Shown piece by piece: positions 19,725-36,046 of a stretch of 64,000 nt of DNA. Under the pieces are notes generated by a model that saw nothing but the letters and a program-made list of their open reading frames with translations, had not been told where the DNA came from and did not search any database. The stretch's first letter is position 1, and every line of letters begins with the position of its first letter. The translations under genes and the position numbers were made by a program. The DNA comes from Gorillibacterium timonense (lineage in GTDB: Bacteria; Bacillota; Bacilli; Paenibacillales; NBRC-103111), in assembly GCF_001457415.1 (NCBI RefSeq), contig NZ_LN881722.1, forward strand, positions 620,001 through 684,000, written 5' to 3'.

Positions 19725-20666
19725 TTATCTTATCAAAGCCTGAACTTCCGGGTCATGGGCATAACGCGATTCAGCGATCTGGGCGACACGAGCGGTTAAA
19801 TTCGGGTATTCCCATCTCGCGTTCGACAGCATGCCGCACAAGCGGATAAAGCGGTCGCGCGGCAGAGCGATCGCATAATCGCCAATCAAGTATTCGCAGG
19901 CGCTGAGATTGGTTTTGGAGCGGAGAGCGGCGCTTGCGACATTCGTGAGCAGCTCGGTCCCATAGCTCAGCTTTTCGATATCGCTGCGGAAGCGAAGCGC
20001 GTAGTCGAGAGACTTTTCGCGGATCAGCGTCCGGTTGACCTTGGAGACCTCCCACATATAATGAACGAACAGCTTGCTGTATTTGCGGGGGACGACGCTT
20101 TCCAGCTCCAGGTCCATATCCTTGCGGAGAACAAACCGGCCGAGGCAGATGATCTTGTTGTACCGGATTCGGTCTTCCAGCACGAATACTCCGACTTCGC
20201 GCAGCTTTTCATAGCATTCGCGGTATCGGTCGGCTTCGTAATCCGCTTCGGCTGCTTTCTCATCCGCATCCAGGCCGTCGGCGATCTGAGGGCTTTTCTC
20301 GACAAGCAGCCGATGCAGCCGGTAAGGAGCAAAGATGCCCGAGTAGCGGCGCAGCAAGAGCCCGTAGCCGACGAGCAGACCGGCGCCGAGAAGGGCAGTG
20401 GCCGTGCGTTGAACCGCGTTCGGGGATAAGTAGACGGCGCTTATCGCGGCAGCCGTCAAGAGCAAGGCCTCGACCGCGGTGCGGAACCGGGCTTTGCCCG
20501 CTCCGATCCGGGCGAGCGGCTTCAGGGTTCCGCTTCGCTTACAGGAGGAGCAAACCGGACCGCGCAGCGACGTAAAGGACCCGCATTTGTCGCAGTGGCG
20601 CAGCCGCTCATAGCGGTATTTCGTGACCAGCGGCTTGCTGAAATGAGCGGCGATCTTATCGTTCAT
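19725..20666 (-). CDS. Zinc-ribbon membrane protein with C-terminal helical repeats
   Basis: A 313-residue protein. Residues 24-44 carry two CxxC pairs (CDKCGSF and CSSC), forming a zinc ribbon. A membrane hairpin of two helices follows at about 65-105 (VEALLLTAAAISAVYL and ATALLGAGLLVGYGLLL). The remaining 200 residues are helical and repeat-like and contain no known catalytic motif. It overlaps the small membrane protein gene upstream by 11 bases. The pair is divergent from the vWA/tubulin/GTPase operon starting at 21450, and zinc ribbons also occur in that operon's GTPase. This suggests, without proving, a functional link. Family not recognised. Confidence 0.7.
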   Translation of the reverse strand: MNDKIAAHFSKPLVTKYRYERLRHCDKCGSFTSLRGPVCSSCKRSGTLKPLARIGAGKARFRTAVEALLLTAAAISAVYLSPNAVQRTATALLGAGLLVGYGLLLRRYSGIFAPYRLHRLLVEKSPQIADGLDADEKAAEADYEADRYRECYEKLREVGVFVLEDRIRYNKIICLGRFVLRKDMDLELESVVPRKYSKLFVHYMWEVSKVNRTLIREKSLDYALRFRSDIEKLSYGTELLTNVASAALRSKTNLSACEYLIGDYAIALPRDRFIRLCGMLSNARWEYPNLTARVAQIAESRYAHDPEVQALIR

Positions 20667-20847
20667 GGGGAGACCTCCCCTCGTTCAGCCATTCGATCAA
20701 ATCGGTATCCATGACTTCCGGAGGTGGAATTTCGCGCTTGCGGCGGCGAAACCGCAAGGCCTTGACGAGCACATAGACGGCCAAGATTCCAAGGATCAGA
20801 TAGGGGGGCCACGCCTCCGCAGCCAGCAACCCGTAAGCTTTCATCAT
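20656..20847 (-). CDS. Small single-pass membrane protein
   Basis: About 63 residues beginning MMKAYG, with one strong transmembrane helix (AWPPYLILGILAVYVLVKAL) followed by a very basic RFRRRKR stretch, so the C-terminus should be cytoplasmic. The frame is open further upstream and no strong ribosome site marks the start, so the start is uncertain. Its end overlaps the start of the zinc-ribbon gene by 11 bases, which suggests translational coupling. Function unknown. Confidence 0.5.
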   Translation of the reverse strand: MMKAYGLLAAEAWPPYLILGILAVYVLVKALRFRRRKREIPPPEVMDTDLIEWLNEGRSPHER

Positions 20848-21449
20848 TTGTCGAGCCCGGGCTTGTGCCTGGCTCTTCCTCCTAGCTAGAAAGGTATGGA
20901 AATTTCGATAGGGGAACGGTATGATTACAGATAAGTTGATCCCTTTACCCGGCCTGACGCGCTTTGGCACGGGCGGGTCCAACGGCTTAGGCGAGAAGGG
21001 TCACGTAGTATGCGTTCAACCCTAGTCATGTGGTTTTCTTTTGGCGCGTTAATGAATATGAAAAGGGTGCGGAAACCACGGTGATTGAGTTGTATGCGTA
21101 CTAGCGGTGGAGCTTTTTGTAAGTTTTCCTGTTTTCCAGTAGAATGGACGCAGGGATACCCACAATAGGACGTTTTTCCCTGCGCCAGATGTGATGAGAT
21201 GTAACCAGAATGCCTTGACTGACGAACGAATGCGTTCGCATACGGCAGAGAAACCAGCGATCAAGGAAGCTTGCAGGTGATTGACCTTGTAGGCTCATTT
21301 TACTATCAGCCAGGGTCCTTGAACAAGGCTCGAACATCGTCATGAATCAGTAAGGGCATCCTGAGCCTCACCCTTGATGCCAATCCGCAAAGGATTATCG
21401 TTGACGACATGCGAGTCTGACAGGCCCAAGTACCGGAGGAGTTACCCAA
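20848..21449. other. 602-base divergent intergenic region
   Basis: This region separates the leftward zinc-ribbon pair from the rightward vWA operon and should contain promoters for both. The only clear small dyad is ATGCG-TT-CGCAT at 21229-21240. Short minus-strand open frames here have no ribosome sites or family features. I see no transposase remnant that I can support, and no recognisable riboswitch. Confidence 0.5.
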
Positions 21450-23246
21450 GTGAAGATCAAAAATAGACTCATTGCTTTCCTCGCCGTTATCAGCTTGACG
21501 TTCGCTTTCATCCTGAATCCCTTCACCGCTTCCACCGCTCGGGCTGCCGATACGGATGAGAAGCTGGACGTCGTGCTCGCCGTTGATGTCAGCAATTCGA
21601 TGGCCGAGAGCGATCGGAATAAGGTTGCGAACGAAGCGATGAAGATGTTCATCGACATGACCTCCGTCCAAGGCGACAAGATCGGTGTTCTCGCCTATAC
21701 GGACCAGATCGTCCGGGAGAAGGCGCTGCTTCAGGTGAACAGCGCTCAGGATAAGCAAGACTTGAAGGATTTCGTCGACCAGCTTTCCCGCGGAGCATAC
21801 ACCGATATAGCGGTTGGGGTCAAGGAATCTGTGAAGATTCTTGAAGCCGGTATGACGCCGGGACATCGTCCGATGATCGTTCTGCTTGCCGACGGCAACA
21901 ATTCGTTGAACAAGGGCCGCTCTCAGGCAGAATCCGATAAGGAGTTAGCCGATGCCGTAGAGCAGGCTCGCCAAAAGGGCATTCACGTCTATACCATCGG
22001 GCTGAACGCGGATGGCAAGCTGAACAAAACGGTGCTGGAGAAGATTGCAACGGACACCGGAGGCAAAGCTTTCGTAACGGATACAGCCGAGACTTTGCCG
22101 CAGATTCTGAGTGAGATCTTCGCGAGCGAGCTGCGGCTTAAGGTCGTTCCTCTCACGAATCTGACGGGAAACGGCTCCTATCAGGATGTCACGGTTTCCA
22201 TACCCAACAACAACGTGCTGGAAGCGAACATTTCCATCGTATCGAACAAAGCGGTGGATGTGAAGCTCTTTGATCCGGCTGGTAAGAGCGTCCCTGTGCC
22301 GAGCGACGGGGTGATCTATTCCCGCTCCAGCTCTTACTCGCTGATGAAGCTGACCAAGCCAGCGGAGGGCGATTGGAAGCTTCAAGTGAAGGGAGCCGAC
22401 CGCGACAAGATCGACATCAGTCTCGTCTTTAACTATGACATTCGCGTTGTCATGGAGCCCTTGACCCAAACGAGCTACAAAGCGGGAGATCGCCTCAAGA
22501 TTAAGGCGCATCTGGAATCCGGCGGCGATCCGCTCACGGATGCCGGGCTTCTCGGAGCGGCGAAAGCCACCCTCGTAGCGACTGACCTGGATCTCAAGAA
22601 GGAGCTCACCAGCCCGCTTGCACTCACAGGAACCGACTTCACCGGTGAGTGGGCTCTTCCAGAGAATCACCGGTATGAAGTGCGGGTCCGGGTAGAGGAT
22701 TCCGGCTATGTCCGCGACAGCGATAAGGTGACCGTGGATGCGGCCAAGGGAACGGTGAGCGCTTCCCCCACTCCAACCGCATCAGCTCCCCCAGCGGCAC
22801 AGCCGGAAAAGGAGAAGAAACCATTTCCCTGGACAGCCGTACTTCTTGGTGGGCTCCTCACTCTCCTGGTCATCGCGGGCGCGATCGTCCTATTCACCCG
22901 CCACAAGAAAGCCAACCGCGGCTTTTTCGGCCAGATGGTGGTGGAGATCCGGGATGAGAATACCGGGGAGCGGCTCAGCCCGCAATACCGCAAGCTGAAC
23001 GCCTTCAAGGGCCGGATTCGCCTGCATCAGCTGCTCCAGCTGGCTCCGGAATACGCCGAGACCGACAAAATCTATTTCGAGCCGGGCAAAGGGGATGCGC
23101 TCTTGCTCTTCAACCGCTCCGGCTGCCTGATCGAACGCTCCGGGCGTGCGGTGGATGCAAGCAAGGGAATCGAGCTTCGCAAAAATGACCGAATCAAAAT
23201 CACGCTTCAAAACGTCAATAAATCGATCCAGCTTGAGTACATTTAA
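21450..23246 (+). CDS. Secreted, membrane-anchored vWA-domain protein
   Basis: A 598-residue protein starting at GTG 21450, fixed by GGAGGAG at 21435-21441. It has an N-terminal signal peptide (positive KIKNR, hydrophobic core, ARA/AD near residue 32). A vWA domain follows at about 38-215 with an intact MIDAS: DVSNS (46-50), the Thr in GAYTDIAVG and Asp in LLADGNN. Beta-rich extracellular segments come next, then a Pro/Thr linker and a membrane helix at about 461-482. The cytoplasmic tail of about 115 residues is probably a small beta domain. vWA/MIDAS domains bind metal-dependent protein ligands, so this could be the external sensor of the operon. First gene of a seven-gene unit; 45 bases to the tubulin-like gene. 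Confidence 0.88.
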   Translation: MKIKNRLIAFLAVISLTFAFILNPFTASTARAADTDEKLDVVLAVDVSNSMAESDRNKVANEAMKMFIDMTSVQGDKIGVLAYTDQIVREKALLQVNSAQDKQDLKDFVDQLSRGAYTDIAVGVKESVKILEAGMTPGHRPMIVLLADGNNSLNKGRSQAESDKELADAVEQARQKGIHVYTIGLNADGKLNKTVLEKIATDTGGKAFVTDTAETLPQILSEIFASELRLKVVPLTNLTGNGSYQDVTVSIPNNNVLEANISIVSNKAVDVKLFDPAGKSVPVPSDGVIYSRSSSYSLMKLTKPAEGDWKLQVKGADRDKIDISLVFNYDIRVVMEPLTQTSYKAGDRLKIKAHLESGGDPLTDAGLLGAAKATLVATDLDLKKELTSPLALTGTDFTGEWALPENHRYEVRVRVEDSGYVRDSDKVTVDAAKGTVSASPTPTASAPPAAQPEKEKKPFPWTAVLLGGLLTLLVIAGAIVLFTRHKKANRGFFGQMVVEIRDENTGERLSPQYRKLNAFKGRIRLHQLLQLAPEYAETDKIYFEPGKGDALLLFNRSGCLIERSGRAVDASKGIELRKNDRIKITLQNVNKSIQLEYI

Positions 23247-23291
23247 GCAGAGGCGCTCCGAACAAGCGCTCTGGCAGGAGGCAGAAAACCA

Positions 23292-26200
23292 ATGAAAGCT
23301 TTGGTCCGCGAACATATCCAGCAGCTTGATGTATCGCTTGGCGGAGGCATCGTCTCCGAGAAGATCCGAGTGGACACCATCGACAACCCGATGCTCGTCA
23401 TCGGGCTCGGCGGCACGGGCATCGACGCCCTGCTCCGCTTGAAGTACCAGATCAACCGGCGTTTCCGGCTTCCGAACGACCCGCTCTCCAAGAAGAAGCG
23501 GGAGAAGCCGGACAATATCGAATACATCGGCTTTGAGACGAACGAAGGCGAGCTTCAGAAGAAATACAAGGGCATCGGCCTAGACCCGCTCACCGAGTTC
23601 GTCCTTCTCTCGAACGCCGAGATCGGAAGCCTGCTGCAAAACCGCAGTGTGCTGGAGCCGTACATAACGGAATGGCTCTCTCCCGAGATCATTGTTACGG
23701 ACGGGGTCGGCGGGGCTTCCGGCAACCGCCAGACCGGCCGTCTTCTGCTGTTCACGAAGATCGTGCAGGTGGTCCAGACGATCGAGAAGAAGATCAAGAC
23801 GCTGACAGAGGGCACAAACAAGAAGCTGATGGTGTTCCTGCTCACGGGTCTTAGCGGCGGTACGGGCAGCGGCGGCTTCCTCGACATCGCCTACATCGTC
23901 CGCGGCCTCATGGAGCGGGAGTATGCCGATGCAGGCGTCGACAAGGTGAGCCTGCTCGGTTATCTGTTCATGCCGGACGTGAACCTGTCCAACAAAAGCC
24001 TCACGGACCACACCCGCGAGTACATCAAGAAGAACGGTTACGCCGCCTTGAAGGAACTCGACTACTGGATGAACGCTGATGAACGCGGGGAGCGCTTCAA
24101 GCAGCGCTACGGGAATATCCTCAGCGTGAATTCCCCCCTGCCGCCCTTCAATCTCGCCCATCTCATCTCGGCGACGAACCTCGACGGCCGCCTCTTAGAG
24201 AACGCTTATGACTATTGTATGAACGTGACCGCCGAGAACATCACCAACTTCATGGCGATGGAAGAGAAGCAATCCGGCGAAGAATTCGCCATCCACGACT
24301 ACATTAGCAACATCCGCAGCAACATCAATCAGATGTCGAAGCCCTATGCGGCTAACTATCAATACAACATCATCGGAGCTTCCTCGGCGGTGCTGCCGAT
24401 CGAGGAAATGACGACTTACCTCGCCTATCGCTTGTTCCGCAAGATGGAAACGATGTTCCAGGTGTCTCCTTCTCGCGAGGATGTCGAGAAGATGGCGCAC
24501 AAGCTGGGCATGGACCTGGACGCGGTGCACCGGGAATTCCTCAAGCGGGTACCGGAACCGATTCCTGGCTATCAGAACAGCGAGCGGCTCAGCTACGCGA
24601 ACTTGATCAAGCTGCAGGCCGTGAGCATGGATACGGAGCTGGAGCAGCAGTTCTTGACCCGTGCCCGCGAAGAATACATCAAGGCTCGCCGCCAACTGCC
24701 CGGGGAGCTGATCGAACGCTTCACCGAGGAGATCCGGCGCGTCTTCCTGAATCCCGAGCAGGGGCCGTTCTACGCGAACCGGTTGATCTATACCAATAAA
24801 GGAGCGAGCCTTCTTGAGCTCATCCGCTCCTATATCGAGAGCCTGCGGGAATCGCTCTATCGCATTCCCCAGGATATCGAGGCGGCGAAGGCGGCATCCG
24901 AGCAGAAGCTCGGGGATGCTCGGGACGCTTTTATCTCCAAGGAGAAGAAAAAGGATCTCTACATCGATGCCAAAATTCAGGAATATGAGCTTTACTCCGA
25001 CCGCGAGCGGATGGAGCAGATGGTCGATTTTTACGAGGATCTGTACCGGACGCTGAATGATCAGAACTCGCGAATTTATTCCGTCTTTACGGAGCTGCTC
25101 AACGCCCTGAATGTCATCTTCGAGAAGAACGGCAACATTCTCGCCAAGGGCGAGGAGAATGTCGACCACAAGGGCAATCGCACTTACTACTGGAACATTG
25201 TTGGCGTACCGGATGTAGAGCGGGTCATTAACGGCATCATGGATGAGAAAAACGTCCAAGACCTCATTCGCGATTTCACGGCGGAGCTGCTGAACAAATC
25301 GGCGAGCTGGATCAAGGATACGGAGGTCGATGTGGTCGGGTCCATCTCGGAATTCATGACCGATCAATTCGGTGACCTGATCACGAAATCGATGGAGGAC
25401 TTCCTGCTGATCAAATACGGCAAAGACGAGTCCATTGAAAGCATCATGGAAAAGATCATCGCCAAACGATTGAACGAAGAAGCGGTTCCGGTGTTCCACC
25501 TGAGCAACAGCTCGGGCAGCTTTCATTTCCCGTCCTACGGCTTTGTCTCGGTACCGGTCAAGGCTCCGAATATCTACAAGGGCATCAAAAACTTCGAGGC
25601 CCATTCCGTCGGCAATTCCCGCTTTACCGTCAAGGAAAGCGAAGTGAAGAACCGCATCTTCTGGCTGAACACGAAAAACGGGGTGCCGCTCTTCTCCTAC
25701 GCGCCGCTCAAGAGCTACGAGGAAAGCTACGAGAAGACAATCTTGCTTCCAGAAGGAACGGGACGTCATCTGGTCCAGACCGATAAGATCAATTGGGTGA
25801 ACCTGCCGTCTCCGATTCCGGAAAAGTCGTGGGGCGATACTTATGAGAACGGACGGGTCCAAAAGCACAATGCAGCCATCCGTACCCTATTCGAGGAAGC
25901 CGAGCGCCGCAGGATCATCCGTGAGAAATCGATCGAATCCAATACCTCCAACCGGTATGAGTGCATCCTAACGGAGCCGTACGATTCGGCGGCGTTTCTG
26001 GCCCGCTTCGACATGCAGCTCACCGGCGGCAAGCCGAACCTGGGCGAAGTGAAGAAGGCAGCGGCTGAATTAAAGAGCTTGGTGGACCAAGGCTTGAAGC
26101 AGACGGCAAGCCGGGAGATCTTCGGCAGTGTGAGCCGCGAGGTGGCGATGGAGAACCTCATCCGCTACCCAGGGCTCTATGAAGAGGTGCGCCGGGAAAT

Positions 26201-26681
26201 CGCCAAGTATGAACGAATCGAGACGGAAATCGACCAGTTGAATGCCGTGATCGGCGCTCATCAGGACGAGGAAAAATGGTTGAATCTCTTTGTGGAGGCC
26301 CTGTACACAGGTACCATCGTGAAGAAAGGCGCCCAATTCGTCTATGACCACGACGCGGAGGAAGAAGCCTGGGAACCGTTCGTCAACCTGCTTCGGGTCA
26401 ATAAGTTCGTCGATTACGCCATCTATGAGAAAGTGCGGTCTCTCGATGCGAAGAAGGTTGCCCTCCTGGAACGCAAGGCGGCAAAGCGCAGCGAGAAGCT
26501 GACCTCCGCAGCCGATGTGGAGCAGTTGATTACGTCGCTGGAAGTCATGGCGGCCGGTTATCAGGAAGCGAAGGAAACCCTCGATTTCGACCGAGCCGAG
26601 CTGGTGAACGGGGAAGAGATGTACCGCTTCTACCGGCAGGTTGCCGGGAAAGTGAACGACATTTGGAAGACGATCAAGTAA
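23292..26681 (+). CDS. Giant tubulin/FtsZ-like GTPase (Tubulin_2 type)
   Basis: An 1129-residue protein whose N-terminal part has the tubulin/FtsZ nucleotide-binding layout. The first glycine motif is VIGLGGTGIDALLRLKYQI (residues 36-54). The T4 signature is GLSGGTGSGGFLD (about 186-198), corresponding to GGGTGTG of FtsZ and tubulin. Residues 200-500 continue the GTPase and intermediate domains. The large remainder is helical, with coiled-coil stretches, and is unlike FtsZ, which has under 400 residues. No membrane helix. AGGAGG lies ten bases before the ATG. It is probably the cytoplasmic, possibly polymer-forming core of the operon, next to a degenerate homologue. Related 'tubulin-like' proteins are known only from genome analyses, so the function is open. 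Confidence 0.88.
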   Translation: MKALVREHIQQLDVSLGGGIVSEKIRVDTIDNPMLVIGLGGTGIDALLRLKYQINRRFRLPNDPLSKKKREKPDNIEYIGFETNEGELQKKYKGIGLDPLTEFVLLSNAEIGSLLQNRSVLEPYITEWLSPEIIVTDGVGGASGNRQTGRLLLFTKIVQVVQTIEKKIKTLTEGTNKKLMVFLLTGLSGGTGSGGFLDIAYIVRGLMEREYADAGVDKVSLLGYLFMPDVNLSNKSLTDHTREYIKKNGYAALKELDYWMNADERGERFKQRYGNILSVNSPLPPFNLAHLISATNLDGRLLENAYDYCMNVTAENITNFMAMEEKQSGEEFAIHDYISNIRSNINQMSKPYAANYQYNIIGASSAVLPIEEMTTYLAYRLFRKMETMFQVSPSREDVEKMAHKLGMDLDAVHREFLKRVPEPIPGYQNSERLSYANLIKLQAVSMDTELEQQFLTRAREEYIKARRQLPGELIERFTEEIRRVFLNPEQGPFYANRLIYTNKGASLLELIRSYIESLRESLYRIPQDIEAAKAASEQKLGDARDAFISKEKKKDLYIDAKIQEYELYSDRERMEQMVDFYEDLYRTLNDQNSRIYSVFTELLNALNVIFEKNGNILAKGEENVDHKGNRTYYWNIVGVPDVERVINGIMDEKNVQDLIRDFTAELLNKSASWIKDTEVDVVGSISEFMTDQFGDLITKSMEDFLLIKYGKDESIESIMEKIIAKRLNEEAVPVFHLSNSSGSFHFPSYGFVSVPVKAPNIYKGIKNFEAHSVGNSRFTVKESEVKNRIFWLNTKNGVPLFSYAPLKSYEESYEKTILLPEGTGRHLVQTDKINWVNLPSPIPEKSWGDTYENGRVQKHNAAIRTLFEEAERRRIIREKSIESNTSNRYECILTEPYDSAAFLARFDMQLTGGKPNLGEVKKAAAELKSLVDQGLKQTASREIFGSVSREVAMENLIRYPGLYEEVRREIAKYERIETEIDQLNAVIGAHQDEEKWLNLFVEALYTGTIVKKGAQFVYDHDAEEEAWEPFVNLLRVNKFVDYAIYEKVRSLDAKKVALLERKAAKRSEKLTSAADVEQLITSLEVMAAGYQEAKETLDFDRAELVNGEEMYRFYRQVAGKVNDIWKTIK

Positions 26682-26780
26682 GCCGCACCCGCGGCCGACA
26701 AGAACGGCCGGGCTGCCAAGGTCCCGGCCTTGCCGGTTTCCGCGGCGGTCCCGGCTTGCTCCCGGAGGATGCATAAGCCG

Positions 26781-29123
26781 ATGCGCGAACGTATACAGGC
26801 ATTTCTATACGAGTATGACAACGAGACCGACCACGCAGCGGATGAGGCAGACGAGCAGCGCAGCCTCTACCATCCCCTCGTTTTCCTGTGCATTGGAGAC
26901 CAGGCGGGTGAAGCGCTTCGCGCGGTTCACCGCCGGATGAAGCGCAAGTGCGTGAATAGCTCCGCCATCGTCTATCTGCATCTCTATGAAAACGAGCCGG
27001 TGGAGGGCTTGGATGAAGTTCTCTCCCTTTCTATCGGGCAAGGGGAAGCGGATCGCAAGTCGGTGCGGCCTGAACTCCACCGCAGGTTCCGGGAAGACAA
27101 GGAGACGCTGGCGGAGCTCAATCGGTTAATCCGTCGAGCCGGAACGCGGCTTGCCGAGAACGGGCTGCAGTTCGGCAGCTTCGGGCGGCTGAGCCTCGCC
27201 GTGATCACCCGAGCGGACGATCCTGCCAATGCACTTCTGCCGGAAGCGGTGCTGCTGACCCGCGGCATACTGGGCGAATCCTTCAAGCATATCCAAATGG
27301 ATCTGTTCACTCTGCTGAAGGAAGGGGAGGCGGGAGATGACTTTGCTTATTCGTCTTCGCTCGGACTCAGCTTTCTCAAGGAGCTGGACAGCTTTCAGCT
27401 GCGGAGCTTCCGTCTGAACGAGCCGCTTCTGCTGACTCAGGACGGCTTCTCCTTGTCCCTGGAGCACGGCCCTTCACCGCTGTTTGATCTGGTTTACCTG
27501 CTCTCCGACAAGGATGAAGCGGGGCTCCTTGCACCGGATGGCCTCGAGCGGGCTTACCGCGCCATCGCGAGCCTGAGCCTGCTCAAAAACCGGCGGACCG
27601 TTCACGAGTTCGACCGGGAGAGCGGGCTCTACAACAACCTGCAATACAAGCAGAGCATCATGAACCCGGCCGTACCGGAGAATGTATATTCCTCCGCAGG
27701 CTATGCGGAGGTAAGGAGACCGAATGCAGCGATTGCGGCGACGGTTCTCCAGCAGTTCTTCCGGTCCTTCACGGCCAGGCTGGAAGAAGCCGGGAGGATT
27801 CCTCCCGACGAATCCGCCGAGCTGTTCGGACTTGACGCTTCTTCGGTGGCCCGGCTGACGCTCAGCCTGCTTCCGCCCGAATCGGCGCTTGAGGAGCTGA
27901 ATGCCCTGCTGTCCCGCAGCGCGAAGCTTGCCGACCTGCAGAGGCTGAACCTCCGCGAAGCGCTTGAGGAGCTGTATGGAGGCATCGACGCTGCCTTCTT
28001 CAAAACCCATTTTGAAGCGGCGGCTCGCGATGCCCTGGAGGCTCTTCCCCTCGCGGAGGAAACCGCGCGGCGGTTGAGCGAAGGACTCAAGCCGCCTTAC
28101 AGCTTCTATTCCGTCTACCACTGGACGCGGCCGCGAACGGAGACGGGGCTGTTCGAAGAGATTCACCGCCAGCAGACCGAGACGAGACGGCAGCTCACTG
28201 TTGCTCGGGAAGAGCTTCAGGCGGTGCTGGACGATCGGGCCGACAAGCTTCCGGCCGGAGGGATGCTGGCAGGTGCCCGCCTGCGCAAATTCCGCCGAGC
28301 GCTCCTCGAAGCGATCTATCCGCTGCGGTATCAAATCCTCGCTCTGGAGACGAGACAGCTTCTTCTGGACAAATGGGAGGAGGTGCTAGCCCTGCTTCAC
28401 CGGAGCTCTTCCCGGCAGGTGGAACAGCTTGGCGAGCTCTCAGCGGTTCTGGACCAGGCGGTAAAAGAGCACACGGGGAGCTACGGAGATTACCTCAGCC
28501 GCAACCTCCCGGAGTATTACGGCTTGCAGACCAAGCGGATCACCGAGAGCCTGGTCGCGCGACGTGGTCCCGATTTTTATTTCGACGGTCGTTTTTTTGG
28601 AGATGTCACGCGGCTATTGGAGAAAGGGACCTCCGAGCTCCTAGAGCGCTTGATTGCCGTCTGTCGAAACGAAGTCTTCACGGATGCCGTATTCCGTCAA
28701 TCGTTTGAGGAAGAGCTGCTGGAACGGGCGAATGTGACCGTCCGGTTCGAGGAGCAGAACCTGATCCTGCCGAAGGAGGAGCTGTTCCGCGATCTCTATG
28801 AGCGATTGGAGAGCGGGGCTACGATCCGTATAGCGTTGTTTCACTATACGCAGAAGCACCGCTATGAGGAGAAATACTTCTTTGGCGATTACGAGAGCGA
28901 GTTCATCCGATATTCCTTTGGTCTTGACCGGGGCAGCCGGACCTACCAGCTCGGTTGCGTTCACGAGAAGAAGACGAGCGGCATCGACAAGCTGAACATC
29001 ATGGGCGGCTTCCGGCTCGCCGATGCCCTGTATGTCCGCAATGCAGAGAAATATTACAGCACCTATGTTCAAAACGGCTTCCGCTTTCATCCTGAAGGGC
29101 GGGAGACGATAGGGGGATTTTGA
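26781..29123 (+). CDS. Probable degenerate tubulin-like partner protein
   Basis: A 780-residue protein, unrecognised by name. The segment FLCIGDQAGEALRAVHRRMK (about 35-54) aligns with the first glycine motif of the upstream tubulin-like protein (VIGLGGTGIDALLRLKYQI), but most loop glycines are lost. A later segment (HIQMDLFTLL to LSFLKELDSFQ) aligns with KVSLLGYLF to YAALKELDYW in the same protein. No GGTGSG-type motif is present. I infer a tubulin-fold subunit that lacks GTP binding, perhaps a pseudo-enzyme partner. The C-terminal two thirds are helical with coiled coils. ATG 26781 follows GGAGGA by 11 bases; ATG 26769 lies inside that site. The stop is directly abutted by the next ATG. Confidence 0.75.
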   Translation: MRERIQAFLYEYDNETDHAADEADEQRSLYHPLVFLCIGDQAGEALRAVHRRMKRKCVNSSAIVYLHLYENEPVEGLDEVLSLSIGQGEADRKSVRPELHRRFREDKETLAELNRLIRRAGTRLAENGLQFGSFGRLSLAVITRADDPANALLPEAVLLTRGILGESFKHIQMDLFTLLKEGEAGDDFAYSSSLGLSFLKELDSFQLRSFRLNEPLLLTQDGFSLSLEHGPSPLFDLVYLLSDKDEAGLLAPDGLERAYRAIASLSLLKNRRTVHEFDRESGLYNNLQYKQSIMNPAVPENVYSSAGYAEVRRPNAAIAATVLQQFFRSFTARLEEAGRIPPDESAELFGLDASSVARLTLSLLPPESALEELNALLSRSAKLADLQRLNLREALEELYGGIDAAFFKTHFEAAARDALEALPLAEETARRLSEGLKPPYSFYSVYHWTRPRTETGLFEEIHRQQTETRRQLTVAREELQAVLDDRADKLPAGGMLAGARLRKFRRALLEAIYPLRYQILALETRQLLLDKWEEVLALLHRSSSRQVEQLGELSAVLDQAVKEHTGSYGDYLSRNLPEYYGLQTKRITESLVARRGPDFYFDGRFFGDVTRLLEKGTSELLERLIAVCRNEVFTDAVFRQSFEEELLERANVTVRFEEQNLILPKEELFRDLYERLESGATIRIALFHYTQKHRYEEKYFFGDYESEFIRYSFGLDRGSRTYQLGCVHEKKTSGIDKLNIMGGFRLADALYVRNAEKYYSTYVQNGFRFHPEGRETIGGF

Positions 29124-30395
29124 ATGGTTCGGCGTAAATTCAGCTTGATGTTGTTTCTGTTCAGCTTGATCGGGGGAGCGATCGGCTTCGCGGGAGGAGA
29201 GCTCCTGCTTGCCCGATTTGGTTCCGAGTGGCCGAATGTATGGCTCATGGCGCTTTATTTCGGCGTTCTCGGCCTCGCCACGGTGTTTTTCTGCCTGCTC
29301 GCCGAAACCGTCTCTCCGGAGATCGCCGGGCAAGGCTGGAGGCTCCGGCATTCCGGTACCGGCTGGAAGCTGCTCGTTCCCGCGGCGTTTATCATCCTGT
29401 TCTCCGCCGGAGCGATCTTCCAGTTTCTCTACGGCTTCGGGCTCGGGAAGCAGGAGCCGGCGCAGGATATCGTACTCGTCATCGACAAATCCGAAAGCAT
29501 GCTGCAAACCGATCCGAAACGCGAGAGCGTAGAGGCGGCGCAGAAGCTCATCCGCCGTATGGACTCCCATAAGCAGGTGGCGGTGATTCTGTTCAATGAA
29601 CAGCCCGAGCTGCTTCAGCCCTTGTCTCCCTTGAGAGACGCGGCCGACCGGGATGCGGTGGCCGACCGCCTGGATAGCTACCGTGCCGCCGGACAGACCG
29701 ATATCGCGAAAGCGCTGGATCTCGCAGTCGAACAGCTCGATTCGCGGACGAATCCGCGCAAGAGCATGGTCATCCTCATCTCGGACGGATACAGCGACGT
29801 GAATCTGGCGAATGCAACGGGACCTTATAGCGCAAAGGGGATTGCCATTCATACCGTCGGCATGAACAATACCAATACCGATGCGACGAAGCTGCTTAAA
29901 GAGCTGGCTGAGCGGACGGGCGGCAGTTATCACGGGATCGGAAGCGCGGGTGAGCTGTCCGGCGTCTTTACAAAGATCTATGATTTGAACCGCGGCTGGC
30001 ATTTGATGGGCGAACGCTCCGAGAATGGCGGCGACAGTCTCTATTATCGGTTCCTGCGCGTACTGCTGTTTGCGGGAATCGGAGCATTCATGGGCCTTGC
30101 GCTAGGCATTGTCTTCGACAACCGTCACCTGGCCAAGAGCTTTACCCTTGGCGGCGCCATCGCCGGCATTCTGGCAGGCACGGTTGTGGAGTTTTGGATG
30201 GGGATGGGGATTGCTCCAGGATTCGGTCGGTTTCTGGCTGACCTCATCCTGGCTGCTGTACTGGCCTTATCACCGCTCCTCATTCCGGTGAAGACGTCCG
30301 GTTCTCTCGGAAGCGCGGCTTCGATGAATCGACCGGGACGAGGTCCAGCCGATGATTATGGCCGTGCGAGCAGCGGCAGCTTTGACAGAAGGTGA
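29124..30395 (+). CDS. Polytopic membrane protein with external vWA domain
   Basis: A 423-residue protein with three membrane helices (about 7-28, 40-61, 83-104), a vWA domain at about 113-290, and three more helices (about 305-388). The MIDAS is complete: DKSES (121-125), Thr in AGQTDIAKAL and Asp in LISDGYSD. The positive-inside rule (RRK at the N-terminus, RLRHSGTGWK between helices 2 and 3) puts the vWA domain outside the cell. This makes a second extracellular vWA module in the operon. The ATG immediately follows the stop of the preceding gene. Related vWA membrane proteins (BatA-like) work with MoxR ATPases; here the partners appear to be the GTPases. Confidence 0.87.
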   Translation: MVRRKFSLMLFLFSLIGGAIGFAGGELLLARFGSEWPNVWLMALYFGVLGLATVFFCLLAETVSPEIAGQGWRLRHSGTGWKLLVPAAFIILFSAGAIFQFLYGFGLGKQEPAQDIVLVIDKSESMLQTDPKRESVEAAQKLIRRMDSHKQVAVILFNEQPELLQPLSPLRDAADRDAVADRLDSYRAAGQTDIAKALDLAVEQLDSRTNPRKSMVILISDGYSDVNLANATGPYSAKGIAIHTVGMNNTNTDATKLLKELAERTGGSYHGIGSAGELSGVFTKIYDLNRGWHLMGERSENGGDSLYYRFLRVLLFAGIGAFMGLALGIVFDNRHLAKSFTLGGAIAGILAGTVVEFWMGMGIAPGFGRFLADLILAAVLALSPLLIPVKTSGSLGSAASMNRPGRGPADDYGRASSGSFDRR

Positions 30396-30400
30396 TGCAG

Positions 30401-31102
30401 ATGAAGGATTGGGAATGGATCACGGAAGTTCCGCAGGAACGCAGAATAACAGGAGCGGCATGCCGTGTCCAGGACCGGGAGGGCGTGCTCACCTGGAACT
30501 GGCCGGCGGGTCTGCCCTTTGTCTATTTGCTTGGATTCGTTCCGGGAGAAGGCTCCGAGGCTTCGACTTGGGAACTGCTATCAACTGGCGGGTCTTCGGA
30601 CGGAGCGTCGTTCGGGACGTATCCCCCGCGCGAACGGCTAAAGCTGTATACCCGCGAAGAGTATAAGGCAAACGGCGGTTATCGGAAGCACCTCGACCGA
30701 TACGGCTCCTATGCCTATCGCATCTACCCCGGAGAACGTCGGGATGGAGTGATTCAAGTATACGCCCAGCAGGATGACGGGAATTCCACTATGTTCAGCA
30801 TGGGGAAGGCCAAGATCCACTGTACCGTCAAATACAAAGCCAACTGGTTTTCCAAAGGAAAGGTCGCTCGCATGACCGTGACGCCGGAGGTGTTTGTCCC
30901 GAAGGAAGCGCTCTGCTACGTCAAGAAAACGGGAGCGATGCCGCAGAGTGTTCAGGATGGAACGGCATATCCACTTTTGTCCGATCTGCAGCCCGGTCCG
31001 AATGCGCTGCCGGACATCGAAATCGGCAAGGACGATTTCATCAAGCTCTTTTTTACAGACGGTAAAGTGTACGGAGAAGCGTTTGATTTGATTCACAGCT
31101 GA
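30401..31102 (+). CDS. Hypothetical beta-rich protein of the vWA/tubulin/GTPase operon
   Basis: A 233-residue protein without signal peptide, membrane helix or known motif. The composition (many Trp, Tyr and Gly, alternating hydrophobic residues) suggests a beta-rich fold, possibly a tandem of small beta domains. ATG 30401 is preferred, eight bases after GAAGG; the GTG at 30392 and ATG at 30395 are alternatives that would overlap the upstream stop. It sits between the membrane vWA gene and the GTPase gene in a tight operon, so it is probably a structural or ligand-binding component. I do not recognise the family. Confidence 0.65.
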   Translation: MKDWEWITEVPQERRITGAACRVQDREGVLTWNWPAGLPFVYLLGFVPGEGSEASTWELLSTGGSSDGASFGTYPPRERLKLYTREEYKANGGYRKHLDRYGSYAYRIYPGERRDGVIQVYAQQDDGNSTMFSMGKAKIHCTVKYKANWFSKGKVARMTVTPEVFVPKEALCYVKKTGAMPQSVQDGTAYPLLSDLQPGPNALPDIEIGKDDFIKLFFTDGKVYGEAFDLIHS

Positions 31103-31156
31103 ACGGCTGAACGGCTGAACTGAGGTTCGCCAAGTACCGCAAAAGGAGGTCTATCC

Positions 31157-32422
31157 ATGCTGAAAGCGCTGAGGGGCTTGTTCCAGAGAACTCCGGTCAA
31201 GGTCAAGCCGCCTTTTTACGATATCGTCTGCCCTTATTGCTTCAGCAAGTTTCAACCGGAAGACGTGCTGTTCCGGGCCACCCACGACAAGGAAGGCGAT
31301 CCCGAATACCGGCTTCAGGAGGATGAAGAGCTGGACCGTTACCGCGCTAAGTTCAATCTCGACTCAGCCGGTGACATCGAGGCGGTCATCTCCCCCGCAT
31401 CCGTTCCGGAGGAGAACAGGACCTATGTCGATCACGTCCTGGTCGGAATCATCGACAAGCATGGCGAATCGACTCGCAAACGGATTTGCCCCCGCTGTCA
31501 CAACGAGCTTCCGATCTCAGCCGGGAAGGTGCCGAGCAACATCATTTCGATCATCGGAGCCACGTCGGTAGGCAAATCCGTCTACATGACCTCCCTGATT
31601 CATACCCTGCAGCAGGTGACGGCAGCGAACTTCGGAGCGGCTTGCATCCCGATGAACGCCGACATCAGCCGTCGCTTCCGTACGTATTACGAGGAGCCGA
31701 TCTTCGAGCAGGGCCGGATGCTGGGAGCTACTCAGAAGATTGAGAAGATGGAGCCGTTCATCTTCAACTTTGTGTTCAAGGATGAGAATTTGCCGCCGCT
31801 TACTCTCGTATTCTTCGATGTGGCGGGAGAAGGGATGACCGACCGGAATTATCTGGACATCTATGCGGCGCATATCCAGAATTCCTCTGGCATTCTCTTC
31901 ATGGTCGATCCTCTGCAGATTCGGACCATCCGCGACCGGCTGCTGATCGGTCTAGGGGAAGGAAGCGGAGATCTGGCAAGCCGGCACGCGGAGCCGCGCG
32001 ATGTCATCATCACCCTCTTCGAAAACTTCATCGGCCACAATGAGAAGTCCAAGACGGATATCCCGACCGCCATCGTCCTCACCAAGAGCGACATGCTGCA
32101 GCATCTGAAGGAAGAGCACGGAGCATACATTGATACGAACAGCAACGTGTTCCGCAATGTCGTGCACGCGGAGCATTTGGACCTGACGGAGTTCTCCAAC
32201 ATCGATGGGGAAATCCGGCGATTTCTCGAGAAGGTGGACCGTCCTTTCAAGGATGCGGTCGATGTGTATTTCACCAACACCGCGTATTTCGCCGTCTCGG
32301 CACTCGGCAGCAATCCGGTGAACAAGCAGATCGAAGGAGTCGTGTCGCCGGTTCGGGTCGATGAACCCTTCGTCTGGCTGCTGCACAAGCTCGATTACAT
32401 CGAGGGGAGAGATTCCCGATGA
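31157..32422 (+). CDS. Zinc-ribbon TRAFAC-type GTPase (GTPase-centric system component)
   Basis: A 421-residue GTPase. Residues 25-28 (CPYC) and 111-114 (CPRC) would form a zinc ribbon interrupted by an 80-residue insertion. A P-loop GTPase domain follows: G1 GATSVGKS (134-141), G3 DVAGEG (221-226) and a G4-like TKSD (309-312). The family resembles the 'TRAFAC clade GTPase' or double-GTPase proteins that occur beside GAP1-type proteins in NTP-dependent conflict systems. Exactly such a gene follows, overlapping by four bases (ATGA), which strongly implies a working pair. AAGGAGG precedes the ATG. Cytoplasmic. It probably acts as a switch controlled by the neighbouring GAP1-like protein. Confidence 0.87.
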   Translation: MLKALRGLFQRTPVKVKPPFYDIVCPYCFSKFQPEDVLFRATHDKEGDPEYRLQEDEELDRYRAKFNLDSAGDIEAVISPASVPEENRTYVDHVLVGIIDKHGESTRKRICPRCHNELPISAGKVPSNIISIIGATSVGKSVYMTSLIHTLQQVTAANFGAACIPMNADISRRFRTYYEEPIFEQGRMLGATQKIEKMEPFIFNFVFKDENLPPLTLVFFDVAGEGMTDRNYLDIYAAHIQNSSGILFMVDPLQIRTIRDRLLIGLGEGSGDLASRHAEPRDVIITLFENFIGHNEKSKTDIPTAIVLTKSDMLQHLKEEHGAYIDTNSNVFRNVVHAEHLDLTEFSNIDGEIRRFLEKVDRPFKDAVDVYFTNTAYFAVSALGSNPVNKQIEGVVSPVRVDEPFVWLLHKLDYIEGRDSR

Positions 32423-35154
32423 CGGAGGCGAAGATTCAGCAGCATTATTACACGCGGGGCCGCGAAGGCTTGTTTCAAGGTGGAGAAGGCTTTGACACAG
32501 TGGCCAAATCCTCCGGCCTCGAGGCTTCGTTCATCCGGAAGACTCTTCATCCCTATTGCCTCTACATAGCCCCGCAAGAGCTGATTCGGCGAGGGGAACT
32601 CGATCCAGCCCGTTATCCGGAATCACTGACCGTGTTCCCGGCGGAGTCGGGCGAGCTTGTGATCGGTCGTGCCGTCTTCAGTGGATCGGATTTTACCGGT
32701 CAGCGGGAGGCTGTCTTCATTCATCAGTTTGTTGTTCCGCGCACCCGCGCCGAGGAATTCCTTCAGCACCCGTCCTCGCTTCTGAGGGTGACCGCTTTTC
32801 ATAACCGTTATGACGAAAGTGAAGGCAAGGACCTTCCTGAGCTTGACCAACTGCCGCATGGGGCAGCGGCATCGGCCGAAGAGAGGGACGCTGTCCTCGT
32901 TCGCTTAGGCGTCGGAGACGCCGTCTTCAAGGCGCTCCTCGCCGCGATCTTCACGGCGATTGCTTCGAAGAAAAAGGTCTATGTTGCGCTCGATGCCGAC
33001 GTCAGCGAAAGTTCCAAGCTCGCCGCGAGCCTGCTGGAGATTCTCTATGTCGGCCTTCCGATCGAGGTGCGCCGCCGCTTCGGGTTTACCACCTATAACA
33101 ACGAACCGCAAGGCAAGAAGGGCATCGACCTCATGGTTGTGGAAAAAGGCAGCATTCGGCCGGGAGACCGTTCCATGGGGAAGGACATCGTGTTCGACTT
33201 CCCGAACGGCCGGTTCCCCGTTCCCGAGCCAGGAACGAAATCAGCTTTCCTCGAGATGGTATGGGAATGGCGGAATGCGCCGAGCGAGCTTGCGGAGTTT
33301 TACGATTTCGCGGCCGAAGCGCTGGATGGTTTTCCCGCTGCCGAGCAGATCTCCCTTGCCGCTTATCAGGAGCTGGCTGCCATTTATCGGACAGGCCGGG
33401 GGGACTACGAGCGCTATCCACTGGAAAAAGGGGAGATCGCGTCGGGAATCCTCCGCTACCTCAAGGTCGGCGGCCATGACAAGAAGCCGAGGCTAAATGA
33501 GCTGCTCCTGGCATTGCTGCGGCAAGAGCAGAGCAACAGCTCCCTTGTGGGAGGAGAGCGGTCACCCTTGCCCCTTGGCGCGCTGGCTGCGTATATGGAC
33601 TATTATGAGGCCGCTCCTGTAGAGAATAAGGAGGAGATCGTAAGCGCCGTCATCGAGTTCCTGGACGGGCTGGCGGCACAGACGCTGCCTGCGAGCGAAG
33701 GAAACGGGAAGGCTGCGACGTCCGGACTTATGGCGGAAGCGAGTGAGGCTCTGCGCAAGCATTCAGAGCTTCAGCGGCTAGTCTACGAACGCACGGGAAG
33801 AGACATTCGATATTCGGCTCTGCAGGAAGCATTTCTGACCGATCGGATGAGCCGCGTGAAGACCGTGAAGGAGCTGCAGGAGGAAATCGTCTTCTGGGCC
33901 AGTCATTCCTTCGACTCGCTCGGGCTTCCGTACTTCATCGATCAGTTTCGGGACAAGCTCCGCAGGGCGCTGCTGAAGTCAGGCGATCATGCGGTGGCCG
34001 GAGAAAGTCTCTTTCGCTTCTGCTCGCAGCTGTACAAGGCTCATTCCAGCCGCAAGGGCTTTGAAGCGTTCTGCGATGCTCTGGAGATTGAAACGGCGCG
34101 AGTCGTTCTCGATTCTCTGTCGCTGTCCACAAGCACGTATGCGGAGGTCATGCAGGCCGGTTATATTCTGGCGGAAGACCGGCTCTTAACCGGAGAGGAG
34201 CTCACGGAGGAGCAAGCCTCCAAGCTGAGAGTTCTGCGCGGCGTCTATGAGGCTATGGTGAATCTGGGGCCGGTTGCCGCTTTGGGCACGGGGATGAAGT
34301 CCGCCCCGGATGGCGATGATCCGCTCGGAGGGAAGGTGCTTCCAGCCGATAAGGCTAGAAGTCATGAGGCGGCCGCATCGCCCCATAAAGAGGAGCGACG
34401 CTTTCCGATCGAGGCGTACACCGAAGGGGAAATGGGTCGAATTCAAGAACTGGTGCGCCGGTTTTTGAAGGGTCGGGTGCATCCTCCTCAGTATGGAACC
34501 CTTTTGTTTTCCTTCACCGAATGGAGCTTCCGGACCGGTGGTGAAGATCGGCCGGTCTCCTATTTCGATCTGTTGACCTTTATCCATAACGAAACGGAAG
34601 GGACCGGGGAGCTCGATAATTTCCTTATCTGGAGCTCGACTCAACCGGCCTTCCGCGACGGCAGCGGAAAAATGCTGAAGCCCGCTTACCGGAATGCTTT
34701 GCGCAAGTATTTTACCGAGGTGGATCGGAAAGCGTTGAAGGACCGGAAACGCTATCGCCAATTGACGGACGAAGCTTTGCCGAGGGAATTCCGGAGAGTG
34801 ATCTCGACAATCCGCGAGGATGGTGGAAATCCGGTTCTGCGTTTCGTGAAGCGCAATGGACGATCGTTGTCCCTTCTCCTGCTTGTCCTCGTTCTCGGAA
34901 CAACAGCCGTTTTCCTGTTCGGTCGCTCGGGGCGCGGCGGTGACGGTTCTCCGTCTCCGACGCTGCTCCCGTCCCCCTCTCCCGGAGGTTTTTCCGTTTC
35001 GCAGAGCCCTGCAAGTTCGATCAGCCCGGACAGCTCGGCTGCTCCGACAGGCTCGGCGAGTCCTGCAGGTTCAGCGAGTCCTGCGGGCTCTGCCAGCCCT
35101 TCGGTTTCGGCAAGTCCGTCCGGCAGCCCTGTTTCTGCTTCTCCTAGTCCTTAA
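32419..35154 (+). CDS. GAP1-N2-like GTPase-associated protein with membrane anchor and Ser/Pro tail
   Basis: A 911-residue protein. The N-terminus (QQHYYTRGREGLFQGGEGFD, then PYCLYIAPQEL and FIHQFVVP) has the pattern of the GAP1-N2 domain found in proteins paired with TRAFAC GTPases. The VYVALDADVSESSKLAASLL and FGFTTYNNEPQG segments are also typical of that family. A long helical middle part follows, a membrane helix lies at about 816-835, and the last 75 residues are a low-complexity tail with repeats of GSASPA. A basic KRNGR before the helix places the bulk inside and the tail outside. The start overlaps the GTPase stop by four bases. It is the last gene of the operon and is followed by a terminator. 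Confidence 0.82.
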   Translation: MTEAKIQQHYYTRGREGLFQGGEGFDTVAKSSGLEASFIRKTLHPYCLYIAPQELIRRGELDPARYPESLTVFPAESGELVIGRAVFSGSDFTGQREAVFIHQFVVPRTRAEEFLQHPSSLLRVTAFHNRYDESEGKDLPELDQLPHGAAASAEERDAVLVRLGVGDAVFKALLAAIFTAIASKKKVYVALDADVSESSKLAASLLEILYVGLPIEVRRRFGFTTYNNEPQGKKGIDLMVVEKGSIRPGDRSMGKDIVFDFPNGRFPVPEPGTKSAFLEMVWEWRNAPSELAEFYDFAAEALDGFPAAEQISLAAYQELAAIYRTGRGDYERYPLEKGEIASGILRYLKVGGHDKKPRLNELLLALLRQEQSNSSLVGGERSPLPLGALAAYMDYYEAAPVENKEEIVSAVIEFLDGLAAQTLPASEGNGKAATSGLMAEASEALRKHSELQRLVYERTGRDIRYSALQEAFLTDRMSRVKTVKELQEEIVFWASHSFDSLGLPYFIDQFRDKLRRALLKSGDHAVAGESLFRFCSQLYKAHSSRKGFEAFCDALEIETARVVLDSLSLSTSTYAEVMQAGYILAEDRLLTGEELTEEQASKLRVLRGVYEAMVNLGPVAALGTGMKSAPDGDDPLGGKVLPADKARSHEAAASPHKEERRFPIEAYTEGEMGRIQELVRRFLKGRVHPPQYGTLLFSFTEWSFRTGGEDRPVSYFDLLTFIHNETEGTGELDNFLIWSSTQPAFRDGSGKMLKPAYRNALRKYFTEVDRKALKDRKRYRQLTDEALPREFRRVISTIREDGGNPVLRFVKRNGRSLSLLLLVLVLGTTAVFLFGRSGRGGDGSPSPTLLPSPSPGGFSVSQSPASSISPDSSAAPTGSASPAGSASPAGSASPSVSASPSGSPVSASPSP

Positions 35155-35244: not shown

Positions 35245-35284
35245 AAAGACCTCCAAGCCTGTTACGAGGCGGAGGTCTTTTTGC
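35245..35284. terminator. Rho-independent terminator ending the vWA/tubulin/GTPase operon
   Basis: AAAGACCTCC (35245-35254) pairs with GGAGGTCTTT (35271-35280), with an inner GCCT/AGGC stem and flanking T. It also serves the converging acetyltransferase gene. Confidence 0.85.
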
Positions 35285-35321: not shown

Positions 35322-35864
35322 TTATTCCTCGGGATTCAGGATCGACAGCACCGTATGATCCTCCCAGCGCCCGTTGATCATGACGTTTTTGCGGGCGATG
35401 CCCTCCTGCTCAAAGCCGGCCTTCTCGAGCACGCGGATGGAGCCGAGGTTGCTCGGCTTGGCCTCTGCCCAGATGCGGTGCAGCTTCAGCTCCCGGAAGC
35501 CGAAATCCACCAGCAGCCGAGCGGCTTCCGTCATGTACCCATTGCCCTCATAGTCCTTGTCCAGGCTGTATCCCATCATAGCTCGTTGAAAGAATCTTCG
35601 CTGTACTTGGAACAGGCTGATGCCGCCGATGAGCTCATCGTTCACTTTCAGGAAGATGCCGAAGTGATACTGTCGATCCTCACGGAAATCCTCCGCACAA
35701 TGGCGGATCCAGTCCAACTGGAAGTCCTCGGAATAATAGCTTTCGTCGCGCGCGGGCGTAACGGCTTGGAAGTGGTCCTGGTTCTTTACATTGTGTTCGG
35801 TCCAGACGGCTGCGTCTTCCTCTTCCAGAGGGCGCAGGTAGATCCGTTCGCCTATCAGCTTCAT
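35322..35864 (-). CDS. GNAT-family N-acetyltransferase (RimJ/RimL-like)
   Basis: A 180-residue acetyltransferase starting at MKLIGERIYLRPLEEEDA, a standard RimJ/RimL N-terminus. The acetyl-CoA binding core is MGYSLDKDYEGNGYMTEAAR, where the usual QGxG/A is EGNGYM. The later HRIWAEAKPSNLGSIRVLEKAGF is diagnostic of this branch, which acetylates ribosomal protein N-termini or small amines. ATG 35864 is supported by GGGAGG ten bases upstream; a longer in-frame ATG at 35957 lacks a ribosome site. It is a stand-alone gene converging on the large operon. Confidence 0.92.
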   Translation of the reverse strand: MKLIGERIYLRPLEEEDAAVWTEHNVKNQDHFQAVTPARDESYYSEDFQLDWIRHCAEDFREDRQYHFGIFLKVNDELIGGISLFQVQRRFFQRAMMGYSLDKDYEGNGYMTEAARLLVDFGFRELKLHRIWAEAKPSNLGSIRVLEKAGFEQEGIARKNVMINGRWEDHTVLSILNPEE

Positions 35865-36046
35865 GGTTGTTCCTCCCGACGGTCCGCAAGGGACCGCTCC
35901 CTTCAAATGTCGTATCCTACCATTGTAAGCCGAGCGGCTGCGAGAGACAATCCCCATAGAAAAACGGCGCGATTCGCTATGCGTCTGCCGCGCATTCGAA
36001 CCACACCGTTATATTTATTCGATCCGCTCTCTTCGATCTGTGGTGC

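Follow-up and report, generated by a model that had tools for sequence, protein, structure and literature searches.

What sort of system is encoded by a run of genes for two von Willebrand factor A (vWA) proteins, a tubulin-like protein, a GTPase, and a GAP1 protein, and what might such a system do for the cell? This question is raised by a nine-gene locus of Gorillibacterium timonense, located within a window of 64,000 nucleotides of contig NZ_LN881722.1 (the window being the whole stretch of DNA that was analyzed; all positions are window coordinates). Its domain and motif content places the locus in the tubulin theme of the GAP1-N2/double-GTPase systems, a kind already known. Its previously unannotated third rightward gene, whose nature was missed in a preliminary description of this DNA, encodes, according to structural modeling, a diverged second tubulin, with the tubulin fold predicted in full. 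Besides the fold of this protein and its large insert, the new elements here are a tandem fibronectin type III (FNIII) pair, a divergent pair of membrane protein genes, an optional gene for a TPR/SH3 protein, and the apparent transfer of the cassette as one unit. The observation behind the preliminary description is real and its class assignment is right, while the function is open to several readings; its interpretation is, in sum, partly supported.

Gene content and the two tubulins

The nine-gene set consists of a divergent pair on the reverse strand (19725-20982) and seven rightward open reading frames (ORFs) extending from 21450 to 35154 in the ORF list:

19725-20666, reverse strand: ZnR313, zinc ribbon (two CxxC pairs), hydrophobic segment(s), and a helical-looking domain after them (ORF list, alignment)
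about 20656-20847, reverse strand: small one-helix membrane protein of ~63 residues (homologs, ORF cluster, start read from the sequence)
21450-23246, forward strand: vWA1, with signal-like segment, vWA domain, beta-sandwich region, one transmembrane (TM) segment, and C-terminal domain (Pfam, hydropathy)
23292-26681, forward strand: TubA, Tubulin_2/FtsZl1-type tubulin with GGTGSG, 1129 residues (Pfam PF13809)
26781-29123, forward strand: TubB, predicted second, diverged tubulin with helical insert (AlphaFold2 model, profile comparison)
29124-30395, forward strand: vWA2, with six TM segments and a vWA domain between TM3 and TM4 (Pfam, hydropathy)
30392-31102, forward strand: tandem FNIII-like protein, 236 residues (AlphaFold2 model, structure comparison)
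31157-32422, forward strand: DO-GTPase with two CPxC pairs, G....GKS, DVAGE, and TKSD (Pfam PF19993)
32419-35154, forward strand: GAP1, with GAP1-N2, GAP1-M, a further region, a TM segment at 817-835, and a Ser/Pro-rich polar tail (Pfam, hydropathy)
about 35245-35282, forward strand: intrinsic terminator closing the operon (sequence read by eye)

Given a start of the third gene at ATG 26781, the distances across the seven genes are 45, 99, 0, -4, 54, and -4 bases, confirming the earlier account of closely spaced or overlapping rightward genes. The single terminator said to close them was also recovered, as a stem (AAAGACCTCC/GGAGGTCTTT) with a T-run after it, read by eye (a scan for such signals did not list it). 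A promoter scan found 10 candidates versus 5.6 expected, and no structured RNA was matched by Rfam at the gathering threshold between 18000 and 36500.

The domains named in the preliminary description were likewise borne out. Pfam VWA was matched in genes 1 and 4, and Tubulin_2 in TubA; the GTPase matched DO-GTPase2 (PF19993, E 3.1e-8, above cut-off), and GAP1 matched both GAP1-N2 (PF20013, E 2.8e-42) and GAP1-M (PF20014, E 2e-23). At E 0.01, Pfam returned nothing for genes 3 and 5 or for the divergent pair. The P-loop, two CPxC pairs, and (L/I)VFFDVAGE of the GTPase are kept in all 79 aligned sequences, and TKSD in 78 of them, the remaining one having AKSD; its mean pairwise identity of 76% makes it, with TubA, the slowest protein of the cassette. 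No match was obtained for the GTPase profile among sequences of solved structures. A DO-GTPase encoded near psp genes has a predicted role in membrane stress, according to the available text of PMC11237479. The GAP1 gene lies downstream of the GTPase gene and overlaps it by 4 bases, and its product is among the fastest evolving of the cassette (mean pairwise identity 37%). These family matches and the conservation agree with the earlier proposal that the two form a GTPase/GAP1 pair of computationally described systems.

GAP1-N2 systems were described computationally by Kaur et al. 2020 (PMC7159879); according to the available text, their firmicute tubulin theme comprises two tubulins, two vWA proteins, a DO-GTPase, and GAP1, with the tubulin and vWA genes themselves classed as variable components. 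The same text reports a polar extension on tubulin-theme GAP1 and FNIII proteins in GAP1-N2 systems generally. The Gorillibacterium locus resembles these systems in its DO-GTPase with N-terminal zinc ribbons and Walker B glutamate, in a GAP1-N2/GAP1-M protein encoded downstream of the GTPase and bearing a polar C-terminal extension, in two tubulins with a helical region (here the long helices of the TubB model), in two vWA proteins, one of them polytopic with its vWA domain predicted outside, and in an FNIII component (here by predicted fold) and a mobile neighborhood. In contrast, the divergent pair of the small membrane protein and ZnR313, as well as the optional TPR/SH3 protein, are not named in the available text, figures and source data aside. 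The theme as described includes vWA fused to YtkA, whereas among the 13 relatives of vWA1 scanned here MG2 was found in 12 and GBD_Hemicentin in 13, and YtkA was not among the matches listed (25 of 31 families). Furthermore, the helical region is described as a C-terminal fusion, whereas in TubB it is predicted to interrupt the tubulin fold as an insert.

A second point of comparison is the set of related FtsZl1/vWA/GTPase loci described by Makarova and Koonin in 2010 (PMC2875224), in which, so far as the available text goes, FtsZl1 proteins have an FtsZ-like N-terminal domain with a glycine loop, followed by a coiled coil and a helical C-terminal domain. Shared features are a Tubulin_2-type protein with a glycine loop, a vWA protein with a metal ion-dependent adhesion site (MIDAS), membrane proteins, and a GTPase with a TxKD-like motif (here TKSD). 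The FtsZl1 loci differ in having an OmpA protein or a kinase, neither of which is present in the window cassette, and GAP1, FNIII, and a second tubulin are unnamed in the available text. That work detected nothing in the FtsZl1 C-terminal domain that resembled other tubulins, whereas the TubB model contains a C-terminal tubulin domain.

TubA matches Tubulin_2 over residues 35-385 (E 3.3e-72), keeps GGTGSG in 79/79 sequences, and is the most conserved protein of the cassette by mean pairwise identity (77%); its profile had one match among sequences of solved structures, at E 0.2, taken as chance. Tubulin_2 proteins are treated as a divergent group in the available text of PMC9871819.

The evidence for TubB comes from structure prediction and profile comparison. 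Its frame was listed as 797 residues from TTG 26730, and the start is probably ATG 26781 instead. The AlphaFold2 model, built from 27 sequences with a predicted local distance difference test (pLDDT) score of 85.8, aligns from residue 30 to its end with 5o09_1B of the BtubABC mini microtubule (Z 22.9, 326 residues, 3.7 A) and over 321 residues with 2btq_B. BtubAB, CetZ, and tubulins lead the VIA-align comparison, with Z of 21.9-22.9 among the 50 rows listed. Foldseek likewise returned CetZ, tubulins, FtsZ, and TubZ, with a weak best E value (3.9e-4) and a long-range root-mean-square deviation (rmsd), both as expected if the fold is interrupted. The TubB model is thus like tubulins of known structure (BtubAB, CetZ, FtsZ, TubZ) in fold and differs from them in its 6-12% identity (rows listed), its missing glycine loop, and a helical insert of ~380 residues. 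The TubB and TubA profiles are homologous (hhalign E 6.5e-6, or 3.1e-5 on a wider set), and 19 of 27 TubB homologs match Tubulin_2 at E<=1, the best at 1.5e-5. A GTP-binding glycine motif is found in 0/79 TubB sequences; where that loop would be, T-R-x-D-D-P-x-N is conserved across the family, followed by P-E.

In the TubB model, elements S1 to S7 occupy residues 32-311 and S8-H10-S9-S10-H11 occupy 694-763, with helices only between them (about model residues 312-693). Reading this order of elements by hand, without tool output, we place the insert between S7 and S8. The M-loop and H9 of microtubules lie between the same two strands and form their site of lateral contact. Mean column identity is 0.78 in the C-terminal piece of TubB, 0.63 in the N-domain, and 0.56 in the insert. 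The gap between TubA and TubB spans -26 to 1733 bases across loci, and in L035 (genome G098, 8137-8782) it holds repeated DNA giving repetitive ORFs.

The 236-residue protein is, by predicted fold only, a tandem FNIII pair. Its AlphaFold2 model (pLDDT 89.6) has a first domain matching FNIII with Z 9.4 over 93 residues at 2.3 A, and the whole protein matches tandem FNIII chains with Z of 7.6-8.9; the best such alignment covers 166 residues with an rmsd of 9.6 A, probably reflecting different angles between the two domains. The best Foldseek match was to FN3 domains 1-2 of NCAM (E 4.9e-5). The window copy has no TM segment.

Topology was predicted by hydropathy, using a simple Kyte-Doolittle window, and by loop charge. 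vWA1 has a signal-like N-terminal segment and a second, TM segment, a MIDAS of the form DVSNS, and a C-terminal domain of ~115 residues predicted to be cytoplasmic. vWA2, with MIDAS DKSES, has six segments in 60/79 homologs, five in 18/79, and four in 1/79, and its vWA domain is predicted from loop charge to be extracellular; DxSxS is kept in 79/79 sequences of both proteins. Among GAP1 homologs, a hydrophobic segment late in the sequence is present in 78/79 and precedes a tail of 60-364 residues, whose mean fraction of polar or small residues is 0.78. TM loops and termini with positive charge, read by eye, fall on the inner side. These features predict a one-pass vWA1 and a six-pass vWA2, both with their vWA domains outside, and an anchored GAP1 whose N2 and M domains lie inside and whose polar tail lies outside. 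No hydrophobic segment was seen in the GTPase (79/79), TubA (75/79), TubB (71/79), or the FNIII pair (77/79). The predicted arrangement, together with family matches and conservation, agrees with the signal sequence, anchors, and six helices reported earlier and with the suggestion of vWA domains outside and a tubulin/GTPase switch inside. Assignment of the vWA proteins to BatA, chloride-channel, or other NCBIfam families was rejected, such matches falling below the model cut-offs.

Conservation and inheritance of the cassette

Genome-wide searches covered GAP1-N2, Tubulin_2, TubB, ZnR313, and the 236-residue protein. Among 104 family genomes, GAP1-N2 was found in 48, Tubulin_2 in 49, and each of the other three in 47, and the same 47 genomes carry all five components; 57/104 genomes, including 40/71 of the more complete ones, had no match in this search. 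A pattern scan of one genome per species across 84,980 species yielded 280 TubA relatives, of which the best 80 were kept, all from Paenibacillus or Brevibacillus. Eight genes (divergent ZnR313 plus the seven) are present in 78/80 loci; the remaining two lie on contigs of 5-6 kb, which stop within the third gene. The order and strand of these genes are identical in all 78 long-enough loci, an arrangement that is thus more than chance. The possibility of homologs that are scattered and never together, which the preliminary description had set against its own reading, is ruled out by this joint occurrence in 47/104 genomes and by the 78/80 intact loci. A phage- or plasmid-borne module, also considered, was rejected on the basis of searches of plasmids, phages, and viral contigs.

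The divergent genes proved to be constant components of the cassette. ZnR313 adjoins vWA1 in 78/80 loci (the two short contigs being the remainder), and each of its four Cys residues is kept in 79/79 aligned sequences; it is among the fastest-evolving proteins of the set (mean pairwise identity 40%). In L071 (G103, 2761-11103), the distance between ZnR313 and vWA1 is about 8 kb versus 87-599 bases in measured intact loci. Homologs of the small membrane protein lie between ZnR313 and vWA1 in 76/78 loci, with a hydrophobic segment in 74, as counted with a profile trained iteratively on the same set; they also form a 25-member ORF cluster. The earlier reading of a divergent zinc-ribbon pair holds for the 313-residue protein with its CxxC pairs and fails for its partner, which is the ~63-residue one-helix protein and not a 108-residue one, the ORF tool having stretched its frame to 20982 from a TTG.

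An optional component is a TPR/SH3 protein of ~600 residues, whose gene is found near ZnR313 in 45/78 loci, plus two more by tblastn (47/78); it is the first neighbor of ZnR313 in 44 loci and overlaps it in 19. An N-terminal hydrophobic segment is present in 41/45 homologs by hydropathy, weak TPR matches in 7/15, and bacterial SH3 matches in 4/15 (best E 5.3e-12). The gene was not found when looked for in the window. At its usual place in L129 (6340-6680), short TPR/SH3-like pieces are likely a remnant.

Inheritance was analyzed in 26 of 30 chosen genomes, leaving out G049 (rpoB frame broken), G069 (cassette interrupted), and G009 and G103 (a component outside the stretch compared). The eight cassette proteins covary, with Spearman coefficients of 0.80-0.96 for pairwise identities, versus 0.37-0.54 between cassette proteins and rpoB/rpoC and 0.84 between rpoB and rpoC. 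A TubA+GTPase tree and a vWA1+TubB+vWA2 tree have 20/23 splits in common and no strong conflict. When compared to rpoB+rpoC, the former has 9/23 splits in common; of its strongly supported splits, 9/18 are in conflict, as are 12/20 of those of the latter. This internal covariation, together with the conflict with rpoB/rpoC, suggests that the cassette was inherited as one unit and crossed lineages at times, such that it appears to have been transferred as one block; both rpo genes are slowly evolving, and part of the transfer signal could instead stem from differential loss. Except for the TPR/SH3 gene, upstream neighbors are common to at most 3/27 lineages among the 25 largest clusters listed. 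Genomes have one GAP1-N2 match each, with the exception of G078, which has a decayed copy in two pieces. Broken or short cassette frames were seen in L065 (G078), L038 (G099), L026 (G069), and L118, by decay or assembly error; such broken cassettes suggest that the system can be lost.

Candidate functions

The explanation that we tentatively prefer, at somewhat short of even confidence, is a GAP1-N2-type double-GTPase system of the tubulin theme in which vWA sensing acts through GTPase/GAP1 on the assembly of a tubulin pair, most likely for protection. The vWA domains outside would sense a ligand or an envelope disturbance, and their signal would set the GTPase, which GAP1 would partner at the membrane. 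Once set, the GTPase would license TubA to assemble at the membrane, with TubB as a non-hydrolyzing partner, while the helical inserts would space or bundle the protofilaments. The tubulin assembly itself may be the output, by containing or sealing a damaged or invaded membrane site, because no enzyme effector was recognized in the cassette when its gaps were checked. Most likely, the system would serve to protect the cell from phages or other invaders. Such a use is plausible, and the odds of its being an envelope machine instead are only slightly lower. A patchy distribution, apparent transfer, and broken copies (G078, G099, G069, and L118) shift the balance modestly toward protection; the constant parts list and a result for cyanobacterial Sll0445, considered below, shift it back.

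Several results weigh against this explanation. No PADLOC model fits any of the nine proteins at E 0.01. No lineage-variable effector was seen in the cassette gaps checked (gaps of at least 270 bases in 121 loci, with 30 clusters listed), unlinked effectors not being sought; the 121 loci combine two overlapping sets with some of the same genomes and are not independent. Plasmids gave two partial matches at 25-27% identity, phages gave no match, and viral contigs yielded no confirmed relative. There is also a vertical signal, since TubA and rpoB identities correlate across 28 genomes (r 0.63, with 0/999 permutations as high). When the C-terminal regions of TubA and TubB were compared by profile, the result was E 0.21, with controls at 0.12-0.58, and a C-terminal tubulin domain is therefore claimed for TubB only. 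Topology comes from plain hydropathy and loop charge; sensing, switching, and assembly are all steps that we infer, joint assembly of TubA and TubB being a prediction. For GAP1-linked systems, only computational papers were found in a literature that was largely without subscription journals and preprints, and the available text of PMC9880817 ties Sll0445 to motility and the photosystem rather than to defense. Accordingly, the conflict role proposed in the preliminary description is not supported by PADLOC, by a variable effector, or by a published experiment found here, and the apparent movement of the cassette as a unit fits such a role without proving it.

A serious rival, held with somewhat less confidence, is a machine for envelope maintenance, membrane remodeling, or surface functions, in which the tubulin pair would shape or support the membrane, the wall, or a surface structure while the cell grows, moves, sporulates, or is under stress, and would play no part in countering invaders. 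This is close to the reading of Makarova and Koonin, who, in the available text of PMC2875224, predicted that FtsZl1/vWA/GTPase loci encode membrane-remodeling complexes. It gains from the Tubulin_2 protein Sll0445 of Synechocystis: in the one experimental study of a Tubulin_2 protein found here (available text of PMC9880817), cells with an interrupted sll0445 gene were reported to be impaired in phototaxis and to show effects on electron transport of photosystem II, and Sll0445 was associated with pilus assembly proteins. The invariant component list, the slow evolution of TubA and the GTPase, and the near-absence from plasmids and phages also fit an envelope machine, as do the wall-facing parts (the predicted polar tail of GAP1, and the TPR/SH3 protein near ZnR313 in 47/78 loci). 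However, 57/104 family genomes without a match, broken frames, and apparent transfer indicate that the cassette is dispensable, unlike a core machine. Moreover, while Sll0445 shares the Tubulin_2 domain and membrane-linked partners, it sits in a different gene setting, adjoining FtsA-domain and DivIC-domain genes, with no vWA, GAP1, or DO-GTPase named in the available text.

Less probable, though worth stating for its specificity, is a device of fixed composition with the polymer as effector: a vWA-triggered TubA/TubB heteropolymer, its protofilaments held by inserts at the M-loop/H9 position, would wall off or seal membrane sites, and the nine-gene block would spread horizontally without a toxin.

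It is improbable that the locus is a signaling switch without a polymer, in which TubA and TubB would serve as a GTP-binding scaffold and the output would be transcriptional or pass through an unlinked effector. The missing glycine loop in 79/79 TubB sequences, large helical inserts that could block filament packing, and the lack of a recognized effector in the cassette are all consistent with such a switch, and FtsZl1 proteins without filaments are mentioned as a less likely option in the available text of PMC2875224. TubB, however, keeps the predicted tubulin fold, and the better conservation of its C-terminal part (0.78) than of its insert (0.56) suggests that contacts have been kept. Finally, a known transport or secretion system, an alternative that the preliminary description had itself named, is very improbable: several membrane proteins are encoded in one operon, but no Pfam or NCBIfam transport or secretion family was matched above cut-off by the nine proteins, and PADLOC gave no match.

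The present results provide a fuller parts list for Paenibacillus-type loci of a family of GAP1-linked bacterial tubulin systems that has been predicted and for which experiments were not found in the literature searched. In particular, the prediction for the second tubulin is a true tubulin fold whose insert occupies a probable site of lateral contact. Constant composition without a recognized toxin argues for pursuing assembly and membrane localization first, ahead of a hunt for a nuclease or protease effector.

Related loci and neighboring genes

The extra genome with a GAP1 match, G064, has a locus (L066, 10377-17810) encoding a PIN-domain protein, a DO-GTPase, GAP1, and a second DO-GTPase with a long N-terminal part, without a cassette tubulin; upstream, pieces of a UvrD-type helicase flank a group II intron-type reverse transcriptase. 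Distant Tubulin_2 proteins in G013 (L068) and G070 (L067), with no cassette homolog around the matched places, possibly represent another tubulin-like system.

Inserted genes seen within the cassette are an ORF identified by eye as NUDIX-like, in a single genome that was seen twice, and a GNAT gene in 6/78 loci, located between TubB and vWA2 (L072, L075, L076, L080, L087, and L092). In the window, a GNAT gene lies just beyond the terminator, at 35322-35957 on the strand opposite to the operon; it has 50-52% identity to the in-operon GNAT, perhaps a coincidence within a common family.

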